64,000 nucleotides of DNA from Paragonimus westermani (lineage: Eukaryota; Platyhelminthes; Trematoda; Plagiorchiida; Troglotrematidae): contig QNGE01000833.1 of NCBI GenBank assembly GCA_008508345.1, positions 42,424-106,423 of the forward strand, written 5' to 3'. Below are positions 1,982 to 60,660 of this stretch, one piece after another. The notes beneath the pieces are model-generated. The model saw only the letters and a program-made list of their open reading frames with translations. It was not told the origin of the DNA and did not search any database. Position 1 is the first letter of the stretch; each line of letters opens with the position of its first letter. The translations under genes and the position numbers were made by a program.

Positions 1982-3555
1982 CTGCACAAATAGCAAACGG
2001 AATATCCTTTGGTGAAATTAAATTTTCGTTGTGAACAGCTAACCATGAAAGTCCGTTCAGCACAACACACAGCCCCTCAAAAGTGCGCGTCACTTTTTAC
2101 GACTAGCCGTCTAGTTTACTGAGGAATCGTTGACAATTCTTCCAAGGAAAAAGGGAGCTCCCTCCAGTACGCAAAGTGAAATACGTGAGTAACACAAGTA
2201 TGACCTTTCATATTGTTGTGGTATTTTCGGCTGTTGTTACTAATGATACACCAATCCGAAACTTTATTTCCAGATAGCATTCTATATATTGCTTCCACTC
2301 ACTTCTTGTTGGTTGGATAACTCTACTGACTTTGTAACTTACCCGTTACAGATGAATAACAACATGTTTGTCATGAATAATTCAAAAGCATACCAATTCG
2401 GTATTGCTTCCGTTTCCCGGTCACTATTCCCACTTGAATCCTAGGCATGGAACGAATGGCGTTGAAGCTTGTCGCTTGTAATTCAACTCCCTTGAGGGCC
2501 CAACAATTCGAGATAGATCAGGCTAATAACACCATCAAACATGATCAATTAGAAATTCACAAATTACGTTTGCCAAACCATGTACTCGACTTTTGTTGTG
2601 GTTATACATTCACGTGTAGTAACTCTCATTTAATTCACCATCCTGTGTGGTTTGCCGCCTTCCCCGGGTCTCGAAAAATGGCACATCAGTTTGCTGTGTG
2701 CACAACTGGATTCCTGTTAGTTCACCGGTGTTCGGCGACCCGTTCGAACGCTCATCGCTATGTGTATATACAAAACTGGAAAGCATTATTTTGGACAGTA
2801 GGACAAATCTCACCCGAAAAGTGTGCTTGCCATTATACTGACTGCTTGTGTTTTGACTATAACGATGATGATGATTTGCTCAATGATTCAAAACGCTTAA
2901 TTTGATTGTATCAACCCTTTTGAAAGGTTTCACCTCTAAGAACCTAACCCTGCGTTGCGGTGAGACTTTTATTACCTACGTGCAGTTGAGGATTTTTGTT
3001 ATGACTTGACCAACACAACTTCAACCTTTCGGTCGATATGCTTTGATTAATATCATCAAACCCGCGTTTCTTTCTTGCTAGAGCCCAGTGCTAGTGCAAA
3101 ACTTTGTCTCCGCTAAAAAGCGAACTGTGCTTGTGAAGCGAGTGCGCTGATGACTCTATGCAAGGCATGACTGGATTATCGCGCCTAAAAGTTCATCCAC
3201 AGTCGCTCGTGAATGTTGTTAAAGTTTTCCGATCTCCGGGTGGTGACAGTTTAGTGAGGACAGACGGTCGCACCATACTATTTACGCCACTATTCAGTAG
3301 CAGCATGGATCGATGTAATCGCGGGATAAATACAGGAGAGATACGGGAAGGATCATTAGTGGGCAGCATAATGTAGAATTGCTTTCGCCATATGACGGAA
3401 CTGAGACATGGTGTCCAAAGCGACTGGAGCATCCTCAGACGAGTGTGGTGTGCAATTGAGTGTTTCTGTTTGTTGTCCCGTTGAGACGCATAAGTTGTGT
3501 ATTGGTTTCCCCAAACATACAAATTCTGTGCCATCCGCCTTCTGGGTTCACAACA
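1982..3555. other. Mostly non-coding; one unrecognised + frame of 152 codons
   Basis: An ATG-initiated frame runs 2447-2905 (+, 152 codons). It is Cys/His-rich toward its end and closes with an acidic run (YNDDDDLLND), but I see no family motif and no clear splice or promoter context. Frames of 128 codons (-, 3193-3579) and 72 codons (+, 3158-3376) overlap each other, so at most one is real. I support none of them as genes. Confidence 0.35.
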
Positions 3556-3559
3556 GTAG

Positions 3560-3740
3560 CACTGTTCAGTTAACTGCAATCAAGGACGCACACTAGTGCT
3601 GAGTTCTAACTAGGGTAAGACTCGAGTCTGATACGCCTTTTAGAAAGGGAATCACTGGGACGTCTATGGGAATGCGAAACCTACGGTCGTTTATGGGTGA
3701 TTTTCAGCTTAAGCGAACCAAAATCTAGACTTTTTTTATC
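3560..3740 (+). repeat. Ribozyme-SINE family copy, degenerate
   Basis: The family signature is recognisable: a box-B-like GGTTCACAAC near 3545, then AAGGACGCACACTA, a stem-II hairpin of GTTCT-AACT-AGGGT, the stem-III/cleavage block CTCGAGTC at 3640-3647, and tail sequence that includes GGGAATGCGAA and TGGGTGATTTTCA. The ribozyme core is damaged: CTGACGA reads GTGCTGA and GAAAC reads AAGAC, so it should not self-cleave. It is related to the copies at 17.6, 30.6, 41.2, 58.4 and 60.5 kb. Confidence 0.6.
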
Positions 3741-12640: not shown

Positions 12641-12770
12641 GCTTGGGCGTCGTGTTGTAATCGAAATTTCGATTCCAACACTCCTGAGGAAGGCCACCCG
12701 AGGTGGTTGAAACGTAGAGTATTACAACTTGCTCGAAACGTTGTGTTATTCCCAATCTGTTTATCACTTA
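12641..12770 (+). repeat. Penelope-type terminal repeat with hammerhead-like motif
   Basis: CTGAGGA (12684-12690), a stem GGCCACC-CGA-GGTGGTT (12692-12708), then GAAAC (12709-12713) reproduce the order CTGANGA / stem II / GAAAC of a hammerhead core. Upstream, GTC (12649-12651) is followed by GTGTTG, a perfect palindrome AATCGAAATTTCGATT (12659-12674) and CAACAC, which can form a long stem-loop ending two bases before the core. Two extra bases (TC) and an unpaired A after the core mean the fold is not textbook. The downstream TTGTGTTATTC...TTTATCA block is shared with 50610-50720. Such motifs occur in the terminal repeats of Penelope-like elements, which is why I call it that. Confidence 0.5.
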
Positions 12771-16140: not shown

Positions 16141-17589
16141 GCGTCGTTTGTGCAAAGATCAAGTCTGATGTGCACAAATCAGAGGGGGAATTGAAGTCTC
16201 TGATTTATATGAACGAAGACTAAATTAGGCAAAATGTAAGTTACTTCTGAATTAGTATTGTTCATCAAAAACTATCACACTCCCAAGAAGAAATTATTTT
16301 CACAACCCAACAGGGTGTTTTAGGATTTCCTAATGCCATAGGTTGAAAGTATACAAGTGACGTTTTGTGCAATTATTGACCAAAAACACGAAAATATGCA
16401 ACTGCATATGACAATATGTATTATATAGATTTTCTGAGTCTCATCGCTGAGTAGTAGAGGGGAGTGGAATTACGTTACCCTCATAACTCCCACATGATCA
16501 TAGTTTTCGACTAATTTGTTGTGGTGGAAGATGCTAAATTTATCTCCAGTTATTCAACAGTGCTTAGTACAGCTCGAATTTAGGTGTGAAAACTCTGGGC
16601 GAAGCGTGTTAGTCGATGTGAAGTTCGGGTCCACTAAATGATGATAGAATGAACCATTGATCATTCATTATTTCTTGTGGTCTGTAGGTCCTGCTGAATC
16701 CAGTGAATTCTTACCATTCCGATGAGAAAAATGGAGTACGAAATTTATCGGAATCAGTTTGCAGAGAGAACGCTGTGAGCCATCAAGTTCAACTTACAAT
16801 CACTGTGGCCCCGTACGTCAGGCATGCGGTGCTCAGGATGACTGATGCTTTCGCAAACTGACTGGAGCATTTCAGACAGGTCAGCTTTGGTATTCCTTGA
16901 AACTAACTAAAACCATTCGACTATCAGGTTTTTATTAACAGAAATGAGATTTCTTAAATCGTGAACTCTCACTTTCCCCAAGTTACAATATAGGTATCAC
17001 GAATTAGCTCATAAGTATGACTTATTGGTTACAATAACCAAAACCTTTCAATGAGTTGCATTATTTTGCATTCGCCTTCAGTGGAATGTGTTATAGGGCA
17101 CGATCCCGCCAACTCAGTCTACGAGACTGGTGAAACAGGTTGTAGGAATACGTTGTTTGTATTGGTAAGCACTAGGTGGTTTTGGTTTTTTTAATACACA
17201 AATTAAACGCCACTCATAATTGATCGCAGTTGTCACATTCCCATAGACATTCCAGTCAGCCTTTTTCGAAAAACATCACCTGCAATGAAGTTGGACTGAA
17301 GCGGTTTCCTGACTCAAGAAGGCTCAGCCAATCGCAGTACATGCACATGCTACTAAAGACGGGAGTGTGGTCGGTCGGGGACAAGCGAACAAAAACGGTG
17401 ATCAGCTGCTGTTTAAATGTAGGTCAGATTCATACGACTGACTTGTTGGATTCAAGGTTGTCGAGGGTAGCACCGAACTGGTCAAATTGCAAGAACGCTT
17501 GTCACCCAACGACAATCGTAAATTCCCCTGTTCCTGTATTTAAAAAGTGCCGCTTTTCTACTAAATTGATATTGTTTGATGCCACAGAG
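16141..17589. other. Non-coding stretch with one unrecognised + frame
   Basis: A frame runs 17230-17622 (+, 130 codons, non-ATG start) directly into the inverted ribozyme-SINE at 17590, so its last part is repeat sequence. No motif is recognised. The rest shows nothing specific. Confidence 0.35.
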
Positions 17590-17815
17590 ACTGTTGTCGT
17601 TTTGCCTTTCTGCATTCGATAGCCCAACACGCGACTGCATTATACTCGAGCTTCATTCTTGTTAGAACTCAACCGCAACGCATATCCTTGCCGTGCCCGA
17701 GACTTAAAATCCCACTCACCTTTGCATGAGGCAACCCTGATAACCACTATGCTATGAACCTCTCATTAAGCATAACCAAACTATCACAAGCAAACGCTCA
17801 GACACATTCACTTGT
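17590..17815 (-). repeat. Ribozyme-SINE copy, well-preserved tRNA-like head
   Basis: On the - strand, from 17815: a 5' block containing GAATGTGTCTGAGCGTTTGC, then the tRNA-like region. This has box A TAGCATAGTGG, a perfect match to TRGCNNAGTGG, and a box-B-like GATTTTAAGTC followed by GGCACGGCAAGGATATGC. The ribozyme segment (17684-17636) keeps stem II as GTTCT-AACA-AGAAT and the block CTCGAGTA, but the core CTGACGA reads CGGTTGA and GAAAC reads GAAGC, so this copy is inactive. Its stem II differs from the GCTCT/AGAGT form by a paired change on both sides. The tail (17635-17590) is truncated. It is head-to-head with the + copy at 17850-18010. Confidence 0.78.
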
Positions 17816-17849
17816 ATCTGGTGTTCAGATTGCTCGATCATCCTGAAAA

Positions 17850-18010
17850 AAGACACCAATCAAGTATACGTTCTAATTATATCTGGCAAGAGTGGAACTT
17901 GAGTGCAGTACTTAGTTTGAAAAGGAGCTGGCTAGAAACTCAATGCGAATATGAAATGCCTGATCAATTTCGAGTGATACTCAAATCATATGCATCATTT
18001 TCAGCAACCT
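17850..18010 (+). repeat. Ribozyme-SINE copy, 3' part
   Basis: Recognised by GTTCTAATTATATCTGGCAAGAGT (stem-II region, expanded and degraded), GGAACTTGAGTGCAGTAC around the former cleavage site, and the tail block AAAAGGAGCTGGCTAGAAA...CAATGCGAAT, which matches 30683-30717. The tRNA-like head is absent or unrecognisable. It points away from the - strand copy at 17590-17815. Confidence 0.55.
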
Positions 18011-19944
18011 CAGGCCTAGGTTATTAATCCTAAAGTGGCATATTTTTACTCCCAACATCCCTTAGCTTTGGGTGACCTATGGCTAATTCTATGGAAGTCT
18101 GTTTCTCCCCCTATTTTTGAGCTCACAACCTTTTTCGTGCTAGTCAACTGAAGACTAGATTGACCTAACAGAACAGCATTGTGATTGTCAATTGTACATA
18201 GCTAAGTGAATAATTCCTTCATGTAGCCAATCTGTTTGCTTAGTTACTCACCACATGTGCTTTTTCCGATTACCTGTTTCATTATAAACAACACATTATC
18301 AGTTTTGGAATGGACAAACAAACGATACATTACCACCGGCTACCTCTCGCTCACACACGTACAAACACATCAATTCTGTCCGATTCCACAATAACATCAA
18401 ATGAATCAATACAATGAACCACCCTTTTCACACCTTCACTTTCAAGTGTATACATAATAGTAGTCAGTAGGACTGTTGTTTCACACAGTCCCATCCACAA
18501 CTAGAGACTCAAATGTTTCTGCTGCCTCTACTACGTTTCCAGATGACCTTGCTGCTCCTACCTTACCCCCCCCCCAGACCAATCTGTAGGTGGCAATGTT
18601 ACTTCTAATTGCAAATGGCCTTATCCCTCCCCATTTACTGGTTCGTGACTATCCCGGTTACGAGTGCGATATTCTCGTACAATCATCCATTTGTCCAACT
18701 CACGTCCAATTAACTGGCAATTAGAAGGGACCGAAGGGGTAGTTGAATTAGCCCGTATTACATAAAGTGTTAATTGTAATCACATCATGGGGATGACCGC
18801 AACTCAGTGAACTTATGTGGACACTATTGTATGCTCTTACTTTCTGATTAAGATTGGCAGAAAACATACTCACGTGCACGGGTGCATTTATACAATTGCA
18901 AATATGCACTCGTATGAATGGAACTTCTATCCCAAACACAGCGTAATCACTGGCCACCTTTCTGTTCTCACGAAAAGAAAGTGGTGTGCATTTACACATA
19001 CAAATACATACATACACATACAAACACAATCTAGTTTCCCAGAATTGGTAGGAGCTGTAATGAACTTGATGCAAACATATCCAACTACTGTTAACCGAAC
19101 TAGGCTATTAGACGTTTGGGGAACGAATGACCACTTTCACAAGCGTGATTAATTTACTGCAAATGTATCCTTTTATAATTGATGGCCAGGTTACAGATAC
19201 CCACGTAAACATCAGTCTATGTGAACAAACACTAAGGTACACGTCGAAATATGTGAATGTCTGAAATTCCGATTATATTAGCTGATCATCATGTTTTTTT
19301 CTCAGCCATGTGTGACTCTTCAATATACGTAACATAGCGCACCTGATGAGTTCAGTAATGTTTTATTTGAAGGAAATGCAACATCCACATAGACCTATTG
19401 AGTTGTATGCTGTCAAAACGTGGAATTGGAAAATGTTCAAACAACTTTTTGTTGTGAAATTCCTACGGTTCACGAGTTATGAATAGCGCTATGTGCATAC
19501 ATGTAGCTATATGGATTGCGGAATTCATATTGCTCTAAGCGTGTTCTCTCCACTAGCAGCTAACACTGCACCAATCGCAATTTCGTCCATAAAAAATATA
19601 TTCAATATAAACCTGAGAGACCAGAAAGTATATGAATGAGATCTAAATACCACAATGTTCCAACCGACTAGCACATTTCGAAATGCGTTATCAAACTCTT
19701 GAAAATGAAATACAATTTCTTAACTAAATGATATAACTAATGCTATACGTGTGAGAGAATTGTGATGAGAGTGCAATATGGTCTGTGCTTTACGGGAATG
19801 ACGATTGTGACGGTGTCATAAGCAAGACAACGAACACGGAGCCTGTGGAGCCCGTGTGATCTCAAAAAGAAATATCTTTGTGAATAAAAAGGATATCAAG
19901 ACTGTTTCAAAGCAAATAAGCCAGTTATCATTTGTTCTTATAAC
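18011..19944. other. Non-coding stretch with simple-sequence tracts
   Basis: A poly-C tract occurs near 18566-18577 and an AC/AT-rich tract (ACACATACAAATACATACAT and similar) at about 18993-19030. The overlapping frames at 18748-19152 on both strands come from that tract. No gene is supported. Confidence 0.45.
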
Positions 19945-20065
19945 CAAATAACTACCGATGAGTTGTAGCGGGAGTGAAATTCGAGTACAGTACTTTGTTT
20001 CGAAGAAGAGGGACGGGGTAACAAGCCTATCTGACTGTGAAATCTGCAATCAACAGCGTGTAGTA
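19945..20065 (+). repeat. Ribozyme-SINE copy, degenerate 3' part
   Basis: ACTACCGATGAG...GGGAGTGAAATTCGAGTACAGTAC aligns with the hammerhead segment. GAAA and the stem-III loop TCGA are kept, the core reads CCGATGA (second base changed) and the cleavage triplet reads GTA. The tail follows with TTTCGAAGAAGAGG and CTATCTGACTGTGAAATCTGC. No tRNA-like head is visible upstream. Confidence 0.55.
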
Positions 20066-20370
20066 TTCAACTTTTATCAACTAAATCTACGAGTACTCAT
20101 CAGTACACATGCAGTGTATACCACAAAAACATCTGGTCCAGTTAGTATCCTCGTTTTCGAATGTTCTTACTCTTTACCCCGACAAGCGGAATGGTGTGCA
20201 CACTGTTCAGTGGAATAGTGTTATCTGGTTGGACAGACGACGAACGGTATCTTATACGTGTGATTTTGTTATCCACTGGTTGTTCTTCGTGTTTCACTCA
20301 GTAATGTGCTATAATTACTAGTCGTGAGCTTACTATCTTAAAAGTACAAGGTAAAAATGCTTATTGTCAT

Positions 20371-29100: not shown

Positions 29101-30551
29101 AGAACCCGCGAGAATATGTCTCGCCCGAATTAATCACACTCATATCAATATCGTTTTTCCAGTGTCACTATCACAGGACTAAACGCATAATTTATCTTCT
29201 GCGGATTGCTTGACAAGATGGTCCACGAGCCTACCACACAATTACACCACAGCCCATAGTATCATATGAATAAGTTTTAAGTCAGGCGTATCACCTCTGA
29301 GACACCAGAAGTTATTATAACAGGCTGTAAAAATCAACTAGGGTTGGGAACTACCATAATTTCACTAATCTTCTTAATGTATTAATTACTAAAGCCGTTA
29401 AAATCGTCTGCAAGTGGTTTAATCAAACAACTTTCCTATAACCAAATTGGTATAAAGGCGTCTGAGGGTGTTACACACCTAACTGGACAAACATCGTTGT
29501 AAAGCAACAGAACAATCATCTTCTTGCTGAATCCAAAATGTTGACTGGAGGGTCAGATTATATTTCGACCTAGTCCATTTATTGTTGGCAGTATGCCGTA
29601 CGCTGAACACGAATAACATCACGACACTTGAAACAAGATTGTTAGTCGTACTCACGAATAAACTGGTCAGTTCACTGTGAAATACTCACTTAAGAGGAAT
29701 CACACAATACTAAAAACATATCCCCAAAATACTCTACGATGTGGGATACCAGTCACTCAGATACCGCTTCTATCAATCATACGAAGCCAGCCTATATTTC
29801 GAGGGATAAGGCTCAGTAGTATGACAAATCAATGCAAGACAATAAAACTTAACACGTCTTAAAGTGGGGGTGAATCCTGACTTGCATACTGGCTACTGTT
29901 AAATACTTCGGGGTTACCATCAGATCTGTAGAACTTGTAAAGCTCACAGCAAATCTATCCTACTGATCACCCGCTCTAATACTGTCCTATAGGTATCACA
30001 ATTCACTATTCACCGTGAGTCTGGCAGGTTGTAGCATAGCCTCTCCAGTCGATATCTGAAAGTATTTTATATATCTCCTCACCTATTTGTATGTAGCCTG
30101 TAACATTTTGAACAGCAGGCTGATTGATGGCTGATTTATTGTTCAGGTGGATTTAGTAACTAATATAATTAGTCGGGACCTCGCTCAGTCATTCGACACT
30201 TATGTAATGCGCCTTTAAAACTAAAGTAACGAACACACCCGTCAACTTGAGTCTCTGTCACCTTACGTTTACATGTGCCCCTTGTATCAGAGAACAACAT
30301 TGAATGATTCATGGCGCATACGATTAGTTTGAACAGACTGTCCATTACGCATTTTTGTACCATCTTCCTTATTAGCCAATTCGTATTGTTGGATAACTTT
30401 ATTTCGTGTTAAAATGCCAATCCTAAGATGTTATAAAGCAATATTCTGACAATCCTTTGTTTCTCGGCTACGTGAGTTATGGTTCTGGCTTACTACATTT
30501 TGGATTGTTGAATTATTGAGAAAATTTGTTGTATCTGTTGTACGAAGTGAA
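26102..30551. other. Non-coding stretch
   Basis: No frame carries a recognisable motif. The ATG-initiated frame at 27643-27879 (+, 78 codons) and the - strand frame at 27363-27100 are the most protein-like but lack splice or start context. A short CTG/GCT-rich run occurs near 28107-28121. Confidence 0.4.
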
Positions 30552-30741
30552 CATCATTCACATTTTATCGCAGCCTTCGCATTCAGATAGATTTTCCAGT
30601 CAGCCGGTTTCGATCGTAGCAAAGATACGCACTACTGACGAGCTATATTGAGAGTGAAACTCGAGTCTAGTGTTTCTGTTCAAAAGAGGCTGGCTGGAAA
30701 GTCTATCTGAATGCGAAGGCTGCGATCGAATGTGGGTGATG
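30552..30741. repeat. Inverted repeat (54-nt arms) around a hammerhead segment
   Basis: The left arm 30552-30605 is the reverse complement of the right arm 30688-30741 at about 48 of 54 positions. It includes a long exact run containing GCAGCCTTCGCATTCAGATA on the left. The right arm is part of the ribozyme-SINE tail, so the left arm is an inverted tail fragment. The 82-nt spacer contains the intact hammerhead core. Confidence 0.85.
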
Positions 30742-31160
30742 GTCAAGTTGGAAATAAACCAAATCCCTGACTATTCATTAGTGACTTTGGTTAGTTTTGT
30801 GATTTTCACCTGGCAAGAAGCCTCAATCGTGGGGTCATTGATTAGAGTCAGTAAAGATTTATTTTGTTTCCTCTCTAGACGATCAGGTGTTTTGTGCACT
30901 ACTCACAAGCGAATGTGACCCAGCGTTTGCATATGATGGTACAGTCATACCCAATGGTAGTTCATTGGCTGCCGTACGAAGGTTTGGTTGGAGTTCACAA
31001 CTTAGCAGTGAGAAGGATATACACTAATAACGAGCTCTAACAAGAGGAAGACATCAGACCACTGCTGTTCTTCGAAAGTGGCTAACTGAACTGTGTGTGG
31101 AAACGCTATAGCTGCGATTAATTTTGACTGATGTTTTACTCATATTAACCAAAAACTCTC
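30606..31160 (+). mobile_element. Tandem dimer of a tRNA-derived ribozyme-SINE (retrozyme-like)
   Basis: The first copy contributes the hammerhead (30630-30672) and a tail (30673 to about 30890). The second begins with the conserved 5' block CAAGCGAATGTGACCCAGCG (about 30905-30924) and continues with a tRNA-like region with a box-B-like GAGTTCACAAC (30991-31001) and GGATATACACTA. Then comes a decayed ribozyme, with core ATAACGA (31027-31033), stem II GCTCT-AACA-AGAG and GAAGAC in place of GAAAC, and tail again to about 31160 (GAAAGTGGCTAACTGAA). Equivalent cleavage positions are 30667 and about 31059, so the repeat unit is near 392 nt. The element has no protein. Any transcript would be pol III (internal boxes) or read-through, and mobility would depend on another element's reverse transcriptase. 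Confidence 0.8.
30630..30672 (+). ncRNA. Type I hammerhead ribozyme, core intact
   Basis: All conserved elements are present in order. Stem I is CACTA (30630-30634) with TAGTG (30668-30672), perfectly complementary. The core is CTGACGA (30635-30641). Stem II is GCTAT...AGAGT (30642-30655), with one mismatch. GAAA follows at 30656-30659. Stem III is a minimal CTCGAG (30660-30665), and the cleavage triplet GTC (30665-30667) lies directly before the 3' strand of stem I. Cleavage is predicted after 30667. Short stem III and an open stem I are typical of hammerheads in schistosome Sm-alpha SINEs and animal retrozymes. Loop-loop contacts that speed the reaction cannot be judged here, so activity is inference. 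Confidence 0.82.
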
Positions 31161-32030
31161 CTACTGTTTGCTACTAAGCAACATAAAAATGTGAAGCGTG
31201 TTCAAAACATGACCGCCAAAAGATGCCACCTACATAGTGTGACAGCATTTTCTGTGTTCTACATTGTGAGTGTGATACAATTTATTGATGGCACTGTGCA
31301 TAGATTGAAGTAGTCGTCATCACTCATCAATGGAGTAACGACAACCCGTTGAATAGCATTCACCAACCTATTTGTTTCCTAAATTGGCGAATTGCAGTCA
31401 GATTTCACTCCTCGTGAGTGCAACTGACGAATTCTGAACGTGTTGGGATTTCGGTGTTGCTTTTTAGTGGTACTGTAGCCCGGAGAACTTTCGTATCACA
31501 GGAGCATTTGGAATTGTTGCTTTGCACAGAAGCCGAGTGTTTGACCATGCTTACAAACACTAGTCGTTCATTTGTTGTCGCTCGTGAGCTAATACAACTG
31601 CGGTCTTTTGCCGTTTCAACAGAATAAATGTAGCATGTATGCAACCTAAAAGACAGAACACATACTAGTAACCAACCAAACGGACACAGTGATCCGGTTA
31701 TCTCTGTGTCCACTTACTTACAAAATTGGTGACCTTTGGAGATTAACACCCAGTATATTGTAACAGTACAGTCTACCAATGAAAAGATCTGTTTCTAGTG
31801 ACTAGTTAGCAAGTGTAGAACATTGTGATGAGAGCAGAATTTCAAAATCTGATGATTATTATTACTATGAATAAAAGCTGCGCTTAAATTCAGAATTAAA
31901 ACATGTCATATCTTTTTGCTTAACTTCAGGTAGAGACACTAGCATATACGTAGTTCATCGATTGTGGAGCGGTCATTTTTGATCGTTCTTATTTTGTGAA
32001 TAAATCTTGCTAACAATAAGAGTTGTTACT
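31161..32030. other. Non-coding stretch
   Basis: The frames at 31405-31713 (-) and 31418-31627 (+) overlap. The - one has a hydrophobic N-terminal part (GWLLVCVLSFRLHTC) but no ATG near it. No gene is supported. Confidence 0.35.
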
Positions 32031-40799: not shown

Positions 40800-41045
40800 A
40801 TGTAAATTGTTGAAAGATGGAGGGCGGTTTTGGTCAATGAAGGTTAAATATCTTTCCCAACTGATCACGACGTCTGCATTCCAGGAGGCCTTCTAGCTAG
40901 CCACTTTGAACCAGATTTACTGAACTCGAGCTTCACTCTTGTTCGAACTCGTCAGCAGTGCATATTCTCAACAAACATCAACAAGCCTAACGATTTATGT
41001 GAGTTCAACTACAAGAAAAGTCCTAGTCGTGAGGACACTTGTCAG
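40800..41045 (-). repeat. Ribozyme-SINE copy, - strand, nearly intact ribozyme core
   Basis: On the - strand: a weak tRNA-like part with GTAGTTGAACTCAC, then AATATGCACTG, core CTGACGA (plus coordinates 40955-40949), stem II GTTCG-AACA-AGAGT, GAAGC (one change from GAAAC), loop TCGA, cleavage triplet GTT, and CAGT, which is complementary to the preceding ACTG. The tail GGTTCAAAGTGGCTAGCTAGAA...GGAATGC runs down to about 40800. The single core change (A to G in GAAA) is expected to disable cleavage. This copy points away from the + copy that starts at 41083. Confidence 0.7.
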
Positions 41046-41059
41046 AAGTAACATGATAG

Positions 41060-41420
41060 TTAGTGTGCCTTTTCTCGAGACGATCGAACAGTCGAAGTAT
41101 TGTACACAAGTAAATATGCCTGAGCGTTTGTACATGATAATTAACGCGTGAATAATGTGAGATCAACGGCAAACTGGTCACCATAGTTACTTCATTAAAG
41201 CGTGGTCGGATTTGAACTCCTGGAAGTGACAAGGATATGCACTACTGATGAACTGTAACCACAGCAAAACTCGAGTCTACGTTTCCTTCTTAAGAATAGT
41301 CAGCTGAAATATCTATGGACATACGGTAGCTGCAATCACCTGTGGATGATCTTCAACCTACACATGCATATTGTGTGAATATCACATCAGGCAAGAACAG
41401 CTTGTATTATCTTGTGACGG
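41060..41420 (+). repeat. Ribozyme-SINE copy, near full length
   Basis: In order: CTCGAGACGATCGAACAGTC (as upstream of the second unit at 30.9 kb), the 5' block ACAAGTAAATATGCCTGAGC, a tRNA-like region with box B GGATTTGAACTCC (41208-41220), AAGGATATG, CACTA, core CTGATGA (41245-41251, the canonical form), stem CTGT-AACC-ACAG, AAAAC in place of GAAAC, CTCGAGTC (41270-41277), and a tail to about 41420 with TATCACATCAGGCAAGAACA. The ribozyme lacks only the conserved G of GAAA plus one stem-I pair. Confidence 0.78.
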
Positions 41421-45788: not shown

Positions 45789-48700
45789 CTAACCTACTCG
45801 CTGTCTCTTAGGCGACGTTGTACTGTGTGCAATTTGTTGACCTACTAATCCCAAACGGCCAGTGGATTCGCGACCACACACATCGCAACACCATTTAGTC
45901 ATCTCACCACGACCTATAGCACCGGTGTTCCCGCTGCGTACAGCGCGGTCCCGTTCACGGCCGCGTAATTGCTGCTCGTTCAATTTCCGGACGCTCGCCC
46001 GAATCGTATTTCTTCGAACCGTCTAGTTCAATACTAACTGTTCCCAACATCTAAAATCAACGTTGCAACGCGAAAGAATTACCTGGATAAAATCCCGGTA
46101 TTTCCGCTTTTGACCATCAGGATTTCGTTTACCTGGTTTTACCTGCTAGTATAGTAGCTGCTTTGAAATAGGATCATCGCCCATCCAAGGCAGCTGAATG
46201 AACATCAGCATGGCTTCCATTCCGTCCATGTCCGCTCACCGCTGTACTTCAGTGTTCCGAATCATGTCCGATCATGGGATACCCAAGATGCGTCTTAGAC
46301 ACTACAAATGGAAACCGTTCAAAGAGCGCACGTCCCACTGATAGAGTATCCAAGTTTTACTGCAGCGTAGCAGTATAGACAGCACCAATGACCAGTAGAG
46401 ACAGAGCTTAGTGGACACCATCGGGCTGGGGCTTTTCCAGATGAACTTTCAAGAAGTCCGAAAGCAGTACTAGCTTTTGCCACGCGAGCTCGTAGCTCGC
46501 GGTCCATGGACAGATCTGTGGACAACTTGTTACCTAAGTAGCAGAAATCGGCGCAGCTGTCGACAACCTATCCATGTATGCAAATCTCAGGCGTACGTAC
46601 AGAAAAAGCACCTCCGCCCGGAGAACACTCAAAGAAGGAAGACGTCTTACCTGTGTTTATATCCAAGTCAATGTTGGATGCGGCGGTCGCAAAAACCGTG
46701 ACCATTCGCTATAGTTCGTCTTCGCCGTGTGAGGACGCAACGTCACCTGCAAACAGAAGCATGCTCATCGTCGAAGTGTGTATCCGGGTTTGGCGCCAAA
46801 GCGTCGGACATTTAGTAGACATCCATCCGCTCACTATTCAACTCAAGTTCCCTCCTCCCCCAATTCATAAAGGGCATATCTCAGCACGGCAGTCAAATAT
46901 AAACTAAGTTGATTTGGGGGTTAAGAAACAACCCTGCTTCACACCGATGGCAATTTCTAAACCACCAGAGGTAGGTCCAGACGGCAGTGCCTTCGTCTTC
47001 ATGCCCACGTGCAACATTCTAATCAAATTGGCGAAACAACCCGGACATTCAAACTTGCCAAGCGTTGTCCACAATGCCTCACGCATCACGGAATCGAATA
47101 TCTTGGCGAAGATTACGCAGAGGGCATAAAGGGACTGATTGTGTTCTCGGCACTGCTGCTGAATCTGTCATGCACCAAAACTAGGTAAATCGTACTGCGA
47201 CTGGCGCACAATCCACACTGCCTCTCAGGATCATTGTCCCCCCCCGGAACGTTTGCATTCAGTCGGTTCAGAAAGAATCTTTCAAGTACCTTGCTCCGAT
47301 AGCTGTCGGAACACTGCTTGTTACCCTTACCTTTAAACAAAAGTACGATCATGACAACTTTGAACTCTCGAGAGATTGCTTTCTGCTTTCAGGTGGAGTG
47401 ACCTAGCTGGTGCAGAGGGCGTTCTAGCGCCAGTCCGCCATTCTTCAGTATTGCACCTGGTAATCCATCCTTGACTGCAGCCTTTTCATTCCACAGTTGT
47501 CTAGCCGCTCTTTGTACCTCTAGTAAATCCGGGACAAAAGCACGTGAAGATTCGTTGGCCTGTTGCGGCAGACTGTTCACGGTCACCCAATCAGTGGTAG
47601 CAGGACGGTTTACTAGGCCAACGAAGTGTTTGCGCCAAACATTCACGATATCCTCTGACTGGGTGCACGAACAGCCGGTGTCCACGTCAACCCGTGTTTT
47701 GGTAGATGGAAAAGATGGACTTGAAACCGCCTTAAGTAAATCATAGAACCCCTTGTGTTGTCGGCGATCGGCGTAACTTTGTATTCGCTCCCCTTGTTTC
47801 CTCCACCAGTCGTCCTTGGCTCCACGAACGTGTTCGGCCACTTGACGGTGAATGCTCCGGAAGGTCGATTTCTTATCTTCATTGTTTTGGCCCATTGTGA
47901 AGGCGGTAAACGCTATATTCTTTTCTTTTATCAAGCTGGAAATAGCCGTGTTGTTGTCGTCGAGCCAGTCCGGACGTTTCTGGCGTTCGATGCCGACTGT
48001 CTCGGTGACTGCTGCTTTGATCTGGCCCCTCAGCTGTTGTCACATATCCTCTGGGGTTGTGGATACAAGGACGTCTTTCACATGAGCGGCAACCGCACAC
48101 TAAAAAGCAGTCCCCGTCTTGAAATCTTCTAGTCACGCATCAATCGCATGATACGCACTTTACGAATGTCGCGCCGCACAATCACTTAATCAAGCAAATG
48201 ACAATGACTGTTTCGTGGATGAGTTCATATCGTGATATCTGTCACATCCAGCTGAAACCGGGTGTTTTTGATGGCCAGATCGTGGGTAGCACATAGTTGG
48301 AACAGAAGACCATCGTTCTCGTTGGCTGAACAAACGCTGTAGGGTCCGAGGGCTCTCGGTCAGGCTACGGAGTTGTGCCCATATCGATCTCTCAGATCAC
48401 CCAGAACAAACAAGCGATAGCTCACCGGTGTCGACAGGTTTGTGGCGGACAGCTGATCACAGTGTTGATCCTTTGATTCATCAGTGTAACACACGCTTGG
48501 TACACAAACCCTAACAAATGTAGCACACTTACTTCGATCAAGTTGTAGACGCGTGGACAGGAATCGAGGGCTGATGCCCTGCGGTTTGCCTAAAATCGAA
48601 GCGTTGGTGCGGCCAGCGACTGCTAAAGAGACACCATGCCTCCGGGTACCGTCTGTCGATTACCTCATCCAATAGAAGGTATACCTAGTACCTGCCTCTC

Positions 48701-49079: not shown

Positions 49080-49190
49080 TCCTGTCAGGACGTCCTGACC
49101 AAACGGCAGAACGATTAGGACTCTCAACTAATCCTTTAGGCTCAAAAGCCTATACCGTAAGGCAGAGGATGGTACGGTTGGCGGCATCCG
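49080..49190 (-). repeat. LINE 5' leader block, related to 1-130
   Basis: Lies just upstream, in LINE orientation, of the endonuclease remnant and matches the first 130 bases of the window. It contains GTCAGGACGTCCTGAC (49083-49098), a perfect 16-base palindrome. Confidence 0.55.
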
Positions 49191-50609: not shown

Positions 50610-50740
50610 TGAGCACCAACATTACAACACTTCTGAAGAAGGCAATCCTAGGTGGTTGAAACGTAGATTATTATGGCCTGTTCATAATGTTGTGTTATTC
50701 TCATTCGGTTTATCAATAACATGTTGAACACGACGCCCAA
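50610..50740 (+). repeat. Penelope-type terminal repeat, second copy of the hammerhead-like motif
   Basis: CTGAAGA (50633-50639), AGGCAATCCTAGGTGGTT, GAAAC (50658-50662), GTAGATTATTA and then TTGTGTTATTC...GGTTTATCA match 12684-12765. Stem II is poorer here than in the first copy. At about 50722-50735, GAACACGACGCCCAAA is the reverse complement of TTGGGCGTCGTGTT, which lies upstream of the motif in the first copy, so this end is rearranged or two ends are joined tail to tail. Confidence 0.5.
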
Positions 50741-52156: not shown

Positions 52157-52363
52157 GTGATGAAAGTATCAGCGGAAAGAACACCAGAACAGAACATAAT
52201 TATCAGCGCCAGACCGGCATCGAGTCGAAGTGATAATATTGGTGGTGGAATGTACACAACCTATCCTGAGCACGGCCTATCGACATCCGAACAAAAACCA
52301 ACAATTCCATTTGAACAAAGCAGATTGAACATGAAAATGGTAGATGCAAGCATTTCGTATTGA
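52157..52363 (+). CDS. Candidate terminal exon, unknown hydrophilic protein
   Basis: CACCCTGTTTCACTGTGCACAG ends at 52156 and is close to an ideal 3' splice site. The frame that follows is open for 68 codons to TGA at 52361-52363. The peptide is hydrophilic (SAERTPEQNIIISARPASSR, MYTTYPEHGLSTSEQKPTIP) and would fit a disordered C-terminal tail. No AATAAA lies close by, and no partner exon was found. The Penelope remnant begins about 100 nt downstream on the opposite strand. The family is not recognised. Confidence 0.35.
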   Translation: MMKVSAERTPEQNIIISARPASSRSDNIGGGMYTTYPEHGLSTSEQKPTIPFEQSRLNMKMVDASISY

Positions 52364-52459
52364 CTCATCAGTACCAAACTTACAATAACATGGGTGGGAT
52401 TTTTTAAAAACCAATCGATTTGAGGGGTGGATAATCAATAATCGAGTTAGGATAAGACA

Positions 52460-53130
52460 TTAAGTCCAGGGAAGGGTCAGGTTCACGAAAAGTTGTTTCT
52501 GAACACAGAGAGCTGGTTTGAGTCGATTCATTGCAACTGCTCCAGCAAACCGTAAGAATCTCAGGTTAGAATGACGCAACAGGATTCTGAATGCACAAGA
52601 TGGATCGATAGCGTGACCGGTGGTCAGGACGTGTCTAGCGACTGAGGAAACTGGCTGTTTATGCGTTTCAGAAACATTGCCATTCTCCAGTAACACGGAC
52701 TTCTGTACCCATTTAGGTAAATGTTCCTTCATTCTGGAGCTCAAGCATCTCTCGGTTCTGCCTATGTAACTTTCTCCGCAGCTACATACAAATTGGTAAA
52801 CACAATGTGAAGTGACGCCGATAGACTGATCTTTGACTGAAGGCACTGGCAGCTTCTTAGTCCGAGTGAGTACACGGAGTTCAGCTGCACTGAACGTTCG
52901 TTTAATTGAATTTCTTAATCACTGTGCTGTTTGCTGCATGGCATAATCACCCTTAAAAGGTGGTACTTTTTGTCTACTGTGTCTATCTATGAACCTTCTG
53001 GGGGTAACCACTTGATTGTACCACAGACGTAATCAGGTGTACTTCCTCCGCGAGGCTGTCGAACGTACAGATTCGTCTTGCTCGTGTGAACAGAGTATTT
53101 ACTAGTGCTCGTTTGTGTCACTCACGGAAT
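52460..53130 (-). pseudogene. Penelope-like element, 3' part: RT C-terminus and GIY-YIG endonuclease
   Basis: On the - strand from 53130: HKRALVNTLFTRARRICTFD and LITSVVQSSGYPQK, the usual region between the reverse transcriptase and the endonuclease. A frameshift near 52990 moves to RFIDRHSRQKVPPFKGDYAM, and a TGA (52921-52919) interrupts it. Then comes RTFSAAELRVLTRTKKLPVP and the GIY-YIG core, VYQFVCSCGESYIGRTERCL (about 52801-52740), with Tyr in VYQF, YIG and the following Arg in place. CVQKQLFVNLTLPW closes the protein before a TAA near 52460, as in other fluke elements. The product would nick DNA and prime reverse transcription in the nucleus. The upstream polymerase motifs are not found beyond 53130, so the copy is 5'-truncated. 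Confidence 0.9.
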
Positions 53131-58299: not shown

Positions 58300-58560
58300 A
58301 TATCACTTCGAAGCATTACTGACAAGCGAACGTGGTCGAGTGTTTGTATATGGTAATTCGGTCGTGTCTAATGTGACTTCAGTAGCGCAGTGGTGCCTAA
58401 GGAATACGTGGTCGAAGTTCAAATCCTCGCCATGCTAATGATATACACCACTAATCAGCTCTAACATTAGTGAAACTCAAGTCCAGTGGTACTGGTCAAA
58501 ATATTTACGGGAATAGGAAAGCCGCGGATGACCTTGAGTGATTTTTTACCTTCCATTAAC
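58300..58560 (+). repeat. Ribozyme-SINE copy with good pol III boxes
   Basis: The 5' block GACAAGCGAACGTGGTCGAG (58321-58340) is followed by box A TAGCGCAGTGG (58383-58393, perfect) and box B AGTTCAAATCC (58415-58425). Then come ATATACACCACTA and a deleted ribozyme core (AATCA where CTGACGA belongs), GCTCT-AACA-TTAGT, an intact GAAAC, and CTCAAGTC. This copy shows the tRNA-derived head best but its ribozyme is dead. The tail runs to about 58560. Confidence 0.75.
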
Positions 58561-59553
58561 TACTGTTTGTTCTAAATTAGCAAAGTTTTTCTGAGTACCC
58601 GAATGACCGGAATAAGACAGTGTGAATTGAATAGTAGAGAATGTTTCCGTTGTTCACTTTCTATCCTGCACAAGTGACAGAGTCTTTAGTTTGTTCAGTT
58701 AAACGTAACTGACAACCACAAGCCTATCAGATACTGACAACGAACACTATTTTTTTTGGGGGGGGAGGGGGAGGGAACCCCACATCAAAATTCATTGCGG
58801 TCTGAAACAGAATTCGGTGTTGTCCACAAACAGCAGTTACCTCTAATCTTCTAACACTGATATTGGTTGAATACCATTTTCACGTGGGCGGAATTGTAGC
58901 ATTCGGACGGATTTTTTCCACCAGTCCACTCCCAAGAAATTTGTGGAGTTCTCAATGTATTTCCAGCTATGCTACATTGTCTACACAGAATTTCTATGCA
59001 TTTTAGACATACTTGTCCGTTACGGAGTTTGGATTGAGCAGATAGTCTTCCAAATAATATACCTTACCAGAAACATTTTACATGGTGTACCATAATACCA
59101 TTTGATTCGTTTGCTAGCCTCATAAGTAGACAGTTGGTGATTGGTTATTGTTGCACATTAGCGCTCATCATCTGGTCAGGCATCTCCTTCACTGTGAGGC
59201 TTGCTCGTTTCGAAATGGAAGGTGTGATACGTAGATTATGTGCTAGAAGCATCTAGCTCTGTGTCTGTTGGCAAATTGTTTGCACCGTCTATACCATGAT
59301 ATTTGAGCCCATGTGGACTCATCGTAATCAACTACACTGTTATCAAGAGTAGCGGAATGGTCCAAACTGGGTGAGACCAGAGAATTACTACAGAACCTAG
59401 GTGTATACTTACAATTCCCCTTCCATGATGAAAGTGCATGTTGTCCGCTTCGAACCGGAGGCCATAGTGCACTTGTTTTGGTTTTACGATCCCCAGTTTC
59501 ATTGTGCACATACACCCACACTCATTCATGTGGTGGTACTTTGCTGAACTTAC
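58561..59553. other. Non-coding stretch with a T/G tract
   Basis: A T8 run is followed by G8-A-G5-A-G3 at 58750-58775. A - strand frame at 59521-59243 is protein-like (RSGQHALSSWKGNCKYTPRF) and has GTAAGTAT inside it at about 59411. It may be linked to the exon candidate just upstream on that strand. Confidence 0.35.
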
Positions 59554-59673: not shown

Positions 59674-60379
59674 CTAGATGGATAGATAAATGGGTGGATA
59701 GGCCGGATGCCGGTGCTTGTCTTCTTCGTGCCCAGAATACCGTAGAACCAGGTGGTCTGTTCAAAAGAACCGTTCAACACAACCTGATTGTGATGAGTGG
59801 TGGGACAGAATGTGTCTGGTGTTGCACGGACCAACGATGGGTGGCCAGAAAACGATGTTGTCTTGTTTCAAGTGCGCTATAAATTCAAGTGGTGCTTATG
59901 TTGTTGGAATAATATTTGCAGATAATACGCTCATGATCAGGTTGATGGTGAGGACGAAGGACAAGAGTGGCTGGGTATTGTGTAGACCTGTGGACAAAGT
60001 GGGTATTTTTGTTCACACCCAGCTTCGTAAACGATCATAAAATTTGCAACGCTTCCCCTCCCGAGCAGATTATCAATGATGGAGGAGAGGTTGATGTGCA
60101 CTTCATTATTCCAGTCCTGTTTTATTCGCGCAGGTTTTGTAATTATGGTGCCGGGTGGAATACGGGGACGCGAACATCAAGGCAATGGACTGCGTTTTAA
60201 TACGGCCGCTATTCGTTCGTATGGATCATGCTACTGCCAGCATGGCTACACTATTTCGTACCTAAATGGGCAGAGGGCCGGACGCTAAACTCGGTGCTCG
60301 TTCACATCGGAATAAAAGACTACCGCCTCCCACCCCATCCCCTAAAAATACACCAACCGGCACAACTAACAACCAACAG
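59674..60379. other. Stretch with several overlapping open frames
   Basis: Frames 59694-59882, 59717-60040, 59967-60200, 60076-60288 and 60228-60461 (+) and 59834-59616 (-) overlap in different phases; GC is a little higher than average. None has a motif, and a single real gene cannot be picked out. Confidence 0.3.
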
Positions 60380-60660
60380 GAATAGAATATCACTCACAGC
60401 CAACCCCGGCCATCGCATTTGCACAGATTTCCCTACTAACCACTTTCGAAAAGAAGCATGACTCAAGTTTCGTTCTTGTTAGGGGTCGTCAGCAGTGCTT
60501 ATGTTTACCGTGGCAGGAGTTGAACATCGAGCACGCTTCCCTGAAGCCACCGTGCTGACTACGGCGGCAGTGATCTCAGAGCAAGCACGAGTGATTTGTC
60601 CCATGCAAGCGCTCAGCCACATTCTCTCGTGAGTAATATAGTTCACGAGTAATAACCAGT
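60380..60660 (-). repeat. Ribozyme-SINE copy with conserved ribozyme core
   Basis: On the - strand from about 60635: 5' block GAGAATGTGGCTGAGCGCTT, then a tRNA-like region (CAGCACGGTGG as box A, TGTTCAACTCC as box B, GCCACGG), AAGCACTG, core CTGACGA (60492-60486), stem II degraded (CCCCT-AACA-AGAAC), GAAAC intact (60471-60467), CTTGAGTC with cleavage triplet GTC, then the tail CTTCTTTTCGAAAGTGGTTA down to about 60380. Core bases are complete, but stems I and II are poor, so activity is doubtful. Confidence 0.78.

Follow-up and report, generated by a model that had tools for sequence, protein, structure and literature searches.

A hammerhead SINE of Paragonimus westermani with Penelope-type two-site ends, likely copied in trans

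Among the closest counterparts of the repeat analysed here is Sm-alpha, a SINE-like element that carries a type I hammerhead. It is tRNA-Gln-like in S. mansoni, and more than 10,000 copies of it exist (Ferbeyre 1998; Laha 2000; as summarized in the parts of PMC2770079 and PMC8490949 used here). A second group are the metazoan non-LTR retrozymes. In the sections of PMC7229834 drawn on here they are tandem repeats of 150-450 bp with a type I hammerhead, a GC content below 50% and neither ORF nor LTR, and with target duplications, where present, of more than 4 bp; retrozyme-like repeats of platyhelminths are mentioned there without detail. The labels overlap, and metazoan retrozymes could count as a novel SINE family (PMC7761336, in part). 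According to the relevant passages of this 2020 review, retrozyme repeats contain no conserved motif that reveals their mover, and Penelope elements and Terminons are the likely candidates; Penelope elements thus appear in reviews as likely, unproven movers of animal retrozymes (PMC7761336).

For the Penelope protein of a lizard, the portions of PMC11167929 consulted describe reverse transcription in vitro from two adjacent internal sites. Most starts fall in an AC-rich loop at nt 111-118 of the ORF; the hammerhead cut is at nt 26, and by subtraction the loop lies 85-92 nt past it. Both target strands were cut and extended, a "tail" of 30-40 bp lay between the two start sites, and insertion in vitro was unchanged with mutants of the hammerhead core. 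The strands did not differ in start site, and opposite pairing of the sites is not reported in these portions (PMC11167929). In rotifers, Penelope elements were described whose pLTRs are inverted, one of these bearing a 31-bp tail; the duplications measure 8-10 bp, and a gene was moved in trans (PMC3846280, in part). A search of the open-licence literature yielded no report of hammerhead repeats in Paragonimus or of Penelope-type ends in hammerhead SINEs. The locus presented below bears on the questions why short repeats of animal genomes retain hammerheads and by what enzyme these repeats are copied.

The window, the whole 64-kb stretch of P. westermani DNA that was analysed, contains one well-kept hammerhead. 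Direct reading of 30629-30673 (+) gave GCACTA CTGACGA GCTATATTGAGAGT GAAA CTCGAG TC TAGTGT, with every conserved base of the type I core present. The original prediction of ordered hammerhead pieces from CACTA to TAGTG was borne out by this reading, including the one mismatch in stem II (A/G). Stem I forms 6 pairs, the last one G.U, and stem II is paired at three of four positions (G.U, C-G, U-A) before the mismatch. The stem-II loop is TATTGA; the loop AACA first assigned to this copy was found in others of the window, for example at 40924-40968 and 60461-60505. The CTCGAG palindrome of helix III is loopless and could close only in a dimer or as a very short helix. Cleavage is predicted after C30667. 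With a descriptor that asked for a run of 5 or more in stem I, CTGANGA, 3/4 or better in stem II, GAA, a short stem III and UH, only 30629-30673 (+) matched in 64 kb, while no match was obtained in 150 first-order Markov windows on both strands, in agreement with the tiny chance originally claimed for the whole motif. With a type I core, three helices and an open helix I, the hammerhead motif of the window is real. Rfam at gathering gave no match in the whole window. Below threshold, HH9 reached 21.4 bits at 30617-30690 and Hammerhead_1 22.9 bits at 40917-40961 (-), and RAGATH-1 marked the hammerhead of a Penelope-like element (Table 1).

Table 1. Features of the 64-kb window with strand and basis of assignment. 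M positions refer to the 431-nt genomic reference unit.
Feature	Position	Strand	Basis
Type I hammerhead motif	30629..30673	+	sequence, descriptor, Rfam HH9 below gathering
GCACTA	30629-30634	+	sequence
CTGACGA	30635-30641	+	sequence
Stem II region	30642-30655	+	sequence
GAAA	30656-30659	+	sequence
CTCGAG, self-complementary helix III without loop	30660..30665	+	sequence; length equals CGcgCG stretch of Rfam Hammerhead_1
TC	30666-30667	+	sequence
TAGTGT	30668-30673	+	sequence
SINE 3' part (M258-M431), from head end through hammerhead and tail to site B (M431) on the right	30611..30784	+	ungapped local alignment to 431-nt genomic unit
29-nt AC-rich "tail", site A (M402) to site B (M431)	30756..30784	+	alignment; sites defined on 87 genome loci
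Inverted left arm, reversed SINE tail replacing head	30548..30613	-	inverted repeat 66 nt, 85%; M327-392
Old SINE copy, hammerhead decayed	2984..3190	-	profile search
Old SINE copy	3495..3730	+	profile search
Old SINE copy, 3' part	17181..17295	-	profile search
Old SINE copy; head resembles box A/B by eye	17547..17795	-	profile search, reading
Old SINE copy	17807..18006	+	profile search
Old SINE copy	19931..20092	+	profile search
Old SINE copy with head	30925..31161	+	profile search
Old SINE copy; hammerhead 22.9 bits with Rfam Hammerhead_1, below gathering	40822..41026	-	profile search, Rfam
Old SINE copy with head; retains CTGATGA and CTCGAGTC	41126..41378	+	profile search
Old SINE copy with head	58342..58570	+	profile search
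Old SINE copy with head; CTGACGA and GAAA retained, stems broken	60362..60610	-	profile search
Penelope-like ORF end	52460..52918	-	protein search; Pfam no match
Minimal Penelope hammerhead, core overlapping likely start codon	52338..52402	-	RAGATH-1 28.7 bits, gathering 56.3
Predicted Penelope hammerhead cut to element end at its site A (about 33 nt)	52310..52342	-	alignment with 12 other genome copies

The copy that contains this hammerhead is an old head-to-head composite without a head of its own. Its inverted arms, 30548-30613 and 30680-30745, are 85% complementary. The right arm aligned without gap up to M431 (30784), and the outer end of the left arm is decayed near M392-402. Since this end is decayed past M392 and a looser alignment was poor, site A on this side (to about 30538) is an extrapolation only. 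No clear target duplication was seen at this copy on inspection. Iterated profile searches of the window gave 13 matches at 12 places, one of them with the inverted part. The mean identity of the 12 copies to a young unit was 71-77%, depending on the region, and the copy at 30611 was the best kept, with 41 of 45 hammerhead positions. A box A-like and box B-like pair was recognized by eye upstream of the hammerhead in the window copies that have a head. No selection on the hammerhead was seen in old copies; the core was not clearly better kept than the rest across the 12 window copies (121/152 versus 1096/1491 positions, p 0.12).

A 34-nt core pattern identified 3351 sites (1645 + 1706) in the 823-Mb genome assembly, compared to 0 for the reversed control. 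The repeat unit behind these sites is non-coding, 431 nt long, single or in tandem. It combines pol III-like A and B boxes with the hammerhead, whose cut is followed by a further 117 nt. The unit of locus L017 was taken as reference unit M. It contains box A at M203 and box B at M247 (spacing 44, 2 mismatches together; 3 of 2000 Markov sequences were as good) and the hammerhead at M276-320 with a predicted cut after M314. The GC content of the unit is 0.478, and the longest open stretch in two units comprises 53 aa. A tRNA-derived short element had been proposed originally. The repeat is indeed short and bears pol III-like boxes; a tRNA was found neither by ARAGORN in the window and in the 11 genome loci given to it, nor by the Rfam tRNA model in the unit at L133 620-1060, up to E 10. 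For this reason the term "pol III-box-bearing" is used here instead of "tRNA-derived". The unit is likely transcribed by pol III.

The Rfam check suggested with the original prediction gave a split result, with the window copies below gathering and young genome copies above it. Young copies reached 34.7 bits with Hammerhead_1 versus a gathering value of 34, with 14 matches in 11 of the 14 loci given. One young unit scored 35.3 bits with Hammerhead_HH9 (RF02275), slightly above its Hammerhead_1 score, yet below the HH9 gathering value of 52. Compared to the Rfam Hammerhead_1 consensus, the young hammerhead has equal segment lengths and forms 14 of 14 pairs (hand count on the alignment), which makes the precedent of Sm-alpha, named at the outset, an apt one. 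The sequence was originally also stated to be different from that precedent; with respect to the Rfam consensus, 8 of the 14 pairs were changed on both sides (helix I 5/6, II 2/4, III 1/4; hand count). These double-sided changes are covariation between families.

The repeat resembles Sm-alpha and Sj-alpha of schistosomes as a type I hammerhead in a SINE-like element, in the fluke with a short, self-complementary helix III; this likeness was judged on descriptions and the Rfam consensus. At 431 nt the unit differs from a W-element similar to Sm-alpha (335 bp in the parts of PMC2770079 and PMC8490949 used). Dispersed copies with target duplications and without ORF were found, as in SINEs. With metazoan non-LTR retrozymes the repeat shares the type I hammerhead, tandem units within 150-450 bp, GC below 50%, the lack of ORF or LTR and the target duplications; the A/B box head and the two-site head-to-head ends set it apart from retrozymes as described in the cited sections (PMC7229834). 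The repeat functions like a hammerhead SINE or an animal retrozyme and is most fittingly classed as such. Being a counterpart, in this fluke, to both the Sm-alpha SINE and animal retrozymes, it is a 431-nt hammerhead repeat of an already known kind. The new part is how its copies end.

Copy ends were analysed at 100 listed core-bearing sites in contig order, obtained as 30 loci and 60 further stretches with near pairs sharing one stretch. Site C35:372900 is absent from this sample, as are C30:476025 and C32:334676, both of which lie in loci of the first sample. From the 90 loci, L048, L055 and L068, each within about 600 nt of another, were dropped. We are aware that the remaining 87 loci were selected for an intact core. 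Right ends were found at two sites 29 nt apart in 76 of 87 loci, 39 at M398-407 (site A) and 37 at M424-431 (site B), with 11 elsewhere; sites A and B lie 88 and 117 nt past the predicted cut. A head-to-head inverted left piece was present in 42 of 87 loci, with outer ends at A (14), at B (17) or elsewhere (11). Both outer ends were canonical in 24 loci (A/B 12, B/A 9, A/A 1, B/B 2), and opposite sites were paired in 21 of these 24 (Fisher p 5e-4, binomial 2.8e-4). Two end sites were again observed in most loci of the first sample, L001-L046, which was picked by likeness to the window copy and is biased to composites. Two 3' ends 25-40 nt apart and head-to-head copies with the tail on one side only, taken as the Penelope-like signature, were thus both found in the SINE. 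Using a score of at least 6, target duplications were identified in 34 of 87 loci versus 0 of 425 swapped-flank controls, and none in the other 53; 24 of the 34 were 10-12 bp long, and 21 hand-picked ones were 73% AT. One tail-to-tail adjacency was seen.

The 5' ends were variable. They clustered at M187-192 (6/82) and M1-17 (11/82) with p about 0.01 each, where the clusters were chosen after looking and ends at M1-2 may be an edge effect of the linear query. Variable 5' ends, target duplications and a box A/B head fit SINEs moved by a LINE, and the repeat could accordingly be an ordinary Sm-alpha-like hammerhead SINE of this type, its inverted copies being accidents of twin or double priming. 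We consider this unlikely. Most copies begin at two fixed internal sites, with one at each in the opposite pairs counted above, no poly-A or simple-repeat tail was seen by eye in the printed ends of the first sample, and native Penelope copies have an equal layout (see below). Furthermore, twin priming inverts 5' parts, whereas both outer ends here are mostly 3' tails.

The simple junctions of inverted arms were distinct in 38 of 39 cases, with only L129 and L130 sharing one, and therefore point to recurrent events. Overlaps of 1-8 nt were found at 26 junctions, 1 was flush and 12 had a gap. In L009, L011 and L023 a single N stands exactly at the junction, possibly a hairpin assembly gap; the window copy has no N. 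The foldback at 30548-30784 might also be explained as a snap-back, in which the end of the cDNA looped back onto hammerhead helix I to serve as its own primer, so that the ribozyme stem would give rise to the inverted repeat. The left arm indeed joins directly at helix I in L015 and L020. Nearly all of the 39 junctions are distinct and the majority are located outside helix I, self-priming should give equal outer ends where mostly A opposite B was observed, and target duplications flank many composites. Since junctions differ and the outer ends are mostly A opposite B, this explanation, in our view highly improbable, was dropped. Inverted arms and target duplications would also fit a DNA foldback or MITE spread by a transposase, with the hammerhead as a passenger. 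Such an origin appears next to impossible: 45 of 87 loci have no inverted arm, arms begin almost anywhere in the unit, tandems of 431 nt are in register, and the distinct junctions show that the inverted form is not one lineage.

The left arms, which were not selected for an intact core, also inform on the template. From 39 left arms, 26 run through the predicted cut, 1 stops at it and 12 stop short. As most arms cross the cut and their ends do not pile up there, a cleaved linear RNA was not the usual template, and the sequences suggest that the SINE is usually copied from uncleaved or re-closed RNA. Such a template fits the lizard core-mutant result (PMC11167929, in part), and it fits circles as well. 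Tandems of 431 nt in one register were found at L010 and L017; among the 100 sites listed, four same-strand pairs were less than 1 kb apart, each exactly 431, and 13 in-register unit-to-unit junctions were counted in the 87 loci. These pairs and junctions, together with the arms that cross the cut as a closed circle would permit, agree with a retrozyme moving as ligase-closed circles made via the hammerhead and with no Penelope role. By itself, this model predicts neither two fixed start sites nor opposite pairing, and tandem genomic transcripts account for the tandems too. We therefore judge it very improbable as a full account. Movement as circles does not conflict with copying by Penelope, to which it may contribute a further step.

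The window also contains the end of a Penelope-like ORF on the minus strand (Table 1), in which a stretch was taken by eye to be a GIY-YIG-type region. The closest named proteins are from Paragonimus westermani, at 89% over 40% of the query and 70% over 69%, and from Dicrocoelium dendriticum, at 58% over 81%. In this element (52310-52918 -) the CTGATGA of the minimal hammerhead contains the likely start codon, as published for lizard Penelope. Two Penelope families served as the within-genome comparison set for the two-site signature. Family 1 is the window element, with right ends taken from 12 of 40 listed matches and the window copy. Out of these 13 ends, 10 are at A (34 nt past the predicted cut) and 3 at B (59 nt), 25 apart. 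A small insertion of this family at L149, the one that was read whole (n=1), has an inverted arm and ends at A on the left and at B on the right, and by eye AGTTTTCACA flanks it on both sides. For family 2, the fragment at L094 was used as query and 150 of 20065 candidates were scored. For 14 of the 150 listed matches, the end was placed near A (33 nt) in 6 cases, at B (60 nt) in 5 and elsewhere in 3, with A and B 27 nt apart. Native Penelope elements of this genome have two-site ends, at least one insertion with the whole pattern.

Many very similar copies of family 2 occur among the 150 scored, for example with frames of 839-840 aa at C294, C4438 and C1550, and head-to-head pairs 2840 bp apart were noted at C2160, C46, C263 and C4484. 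A GGGAAC..A.TGTTTCA-like stretch is, by eye, common to both Penelope tails (L145 210-235 and L151 239-266), the rest of which differs; it is a possible protein-binding motif.

The SINE shares with Penelope-like elements a hammerhead adjoining two adjacent start sites, a one-sided tail, duplications of about 8-12 bp and partial tandems (PMC11167929, PMC3846280, both in part). It differs from them in that it lacks an RT/GIY-YIG ORF, has a tail sequence of its own and bears pol III-like boxes; its hammerhead, in young copies, also scores above the Rfam Hammerhead_1 gathering value. The type I fold is common to the SINE and to the RAGATH-1 or minimal Penelope hammerheads, with a 4-bp helix II in the SINE. 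Its sites lie 88/117 nt past the cut versus 34/59 and 33/60 in the two Penelope families. Comparing the SINE tail to 12 family-1 and 14 family-2 ends, no convincing match and hence no shared 3' sequence was found. A solo Penelope pLTR was considered and rejected, as the SINE has no long open frame and no convincing match to the two families. With no open stretch above 53 aa, the SINE falls outside the Penelope elements proper and could be no more than a non-autonomous dependant. Six loci with Penelope fragments, checked for preferential SINE insertion at Penelope ends, gave a mixed picture.

Since the SINE ends share their two-site form with native Penelope elements, the latter likely do the copying: we conclude, with a probability of roughly 0.76, that the reverse transcriptase and GIY-YIG endonuclease of a Penelope element supply the machinery by which the hammerhead SINE with its Penelope-type ends is copied in trans. 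Counted against Penelope copying are the ends off both sites (11 of 87 on the right, 11 of 42 on the left), the SINE tail without clear shared sequence with either native family, the distances of its sites from the cut, which differ from those of both families, the 53 loci in which no target duplication of score 6 was seen, and the lizard protein, whose start site did not differ by strand. With some reserve we also favour a wider reading, in which the movers long sought for the hammerhead SINEs and retrozymes of animals would be Penelope-like elements, and the SINE a second kind of Penelope parasite with a pol III-type head joined to a module of hammerhead and start sites. Each insertion would be made by a two-subunit Penelope complex that starts a single cDNA on either target strand, using a different site for each.

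In the proposed course of events, pol III would transcribe the unit, and the hammerhead would cut tandem RNA into units, which a host ligase may close into circles. The Penelope protein would bind the region downstream of the hammerhead and nick both target strands, so that one cDNA could begin on each strand, one from each site. Joining of the two cDNAs, often by microhomology, would then yield inverted copies. At 30548-30784, one arm would represent a cDNA of the tail alone, the other a cDNA that comprises hammerhead and tail. This mechanism draws on the lizard protein, with its internal starts and its cutting and extension of both strands (PMC11167929), and on the rotifer elements, which have inverted pLTRs with one tail (PMC3846280), each as far as given in the parts used.

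The genome itself supplies the signature, two start sites, opposite pairing, one tail and short duplications, in a form common to native Penelope elements, and the question of the mover becomes testable with one purified protein and one 431-nt RNA. In turn, the opposite-site pairing informs on Penelope, as 21 of 24 SINE pairs differ by side versus no strand difference in vitro in the portions of PMC11167929 used.

Outside the repeats discussed so far, a 216-aa open frame at 47389-48039 (-) presumably resembles, judged by eye, the coding sequence of a fluke non-LTR retrotransposon; a Pfam search with six window ORFs, this one included, gave nothing above cut-off. Two direct repeats were also noted in the window, one of 95 nt at 12672-12766 and 50621-50715 (81% identical), the other of 70 nt at 46-115 and 49103-49172 (80% identical).
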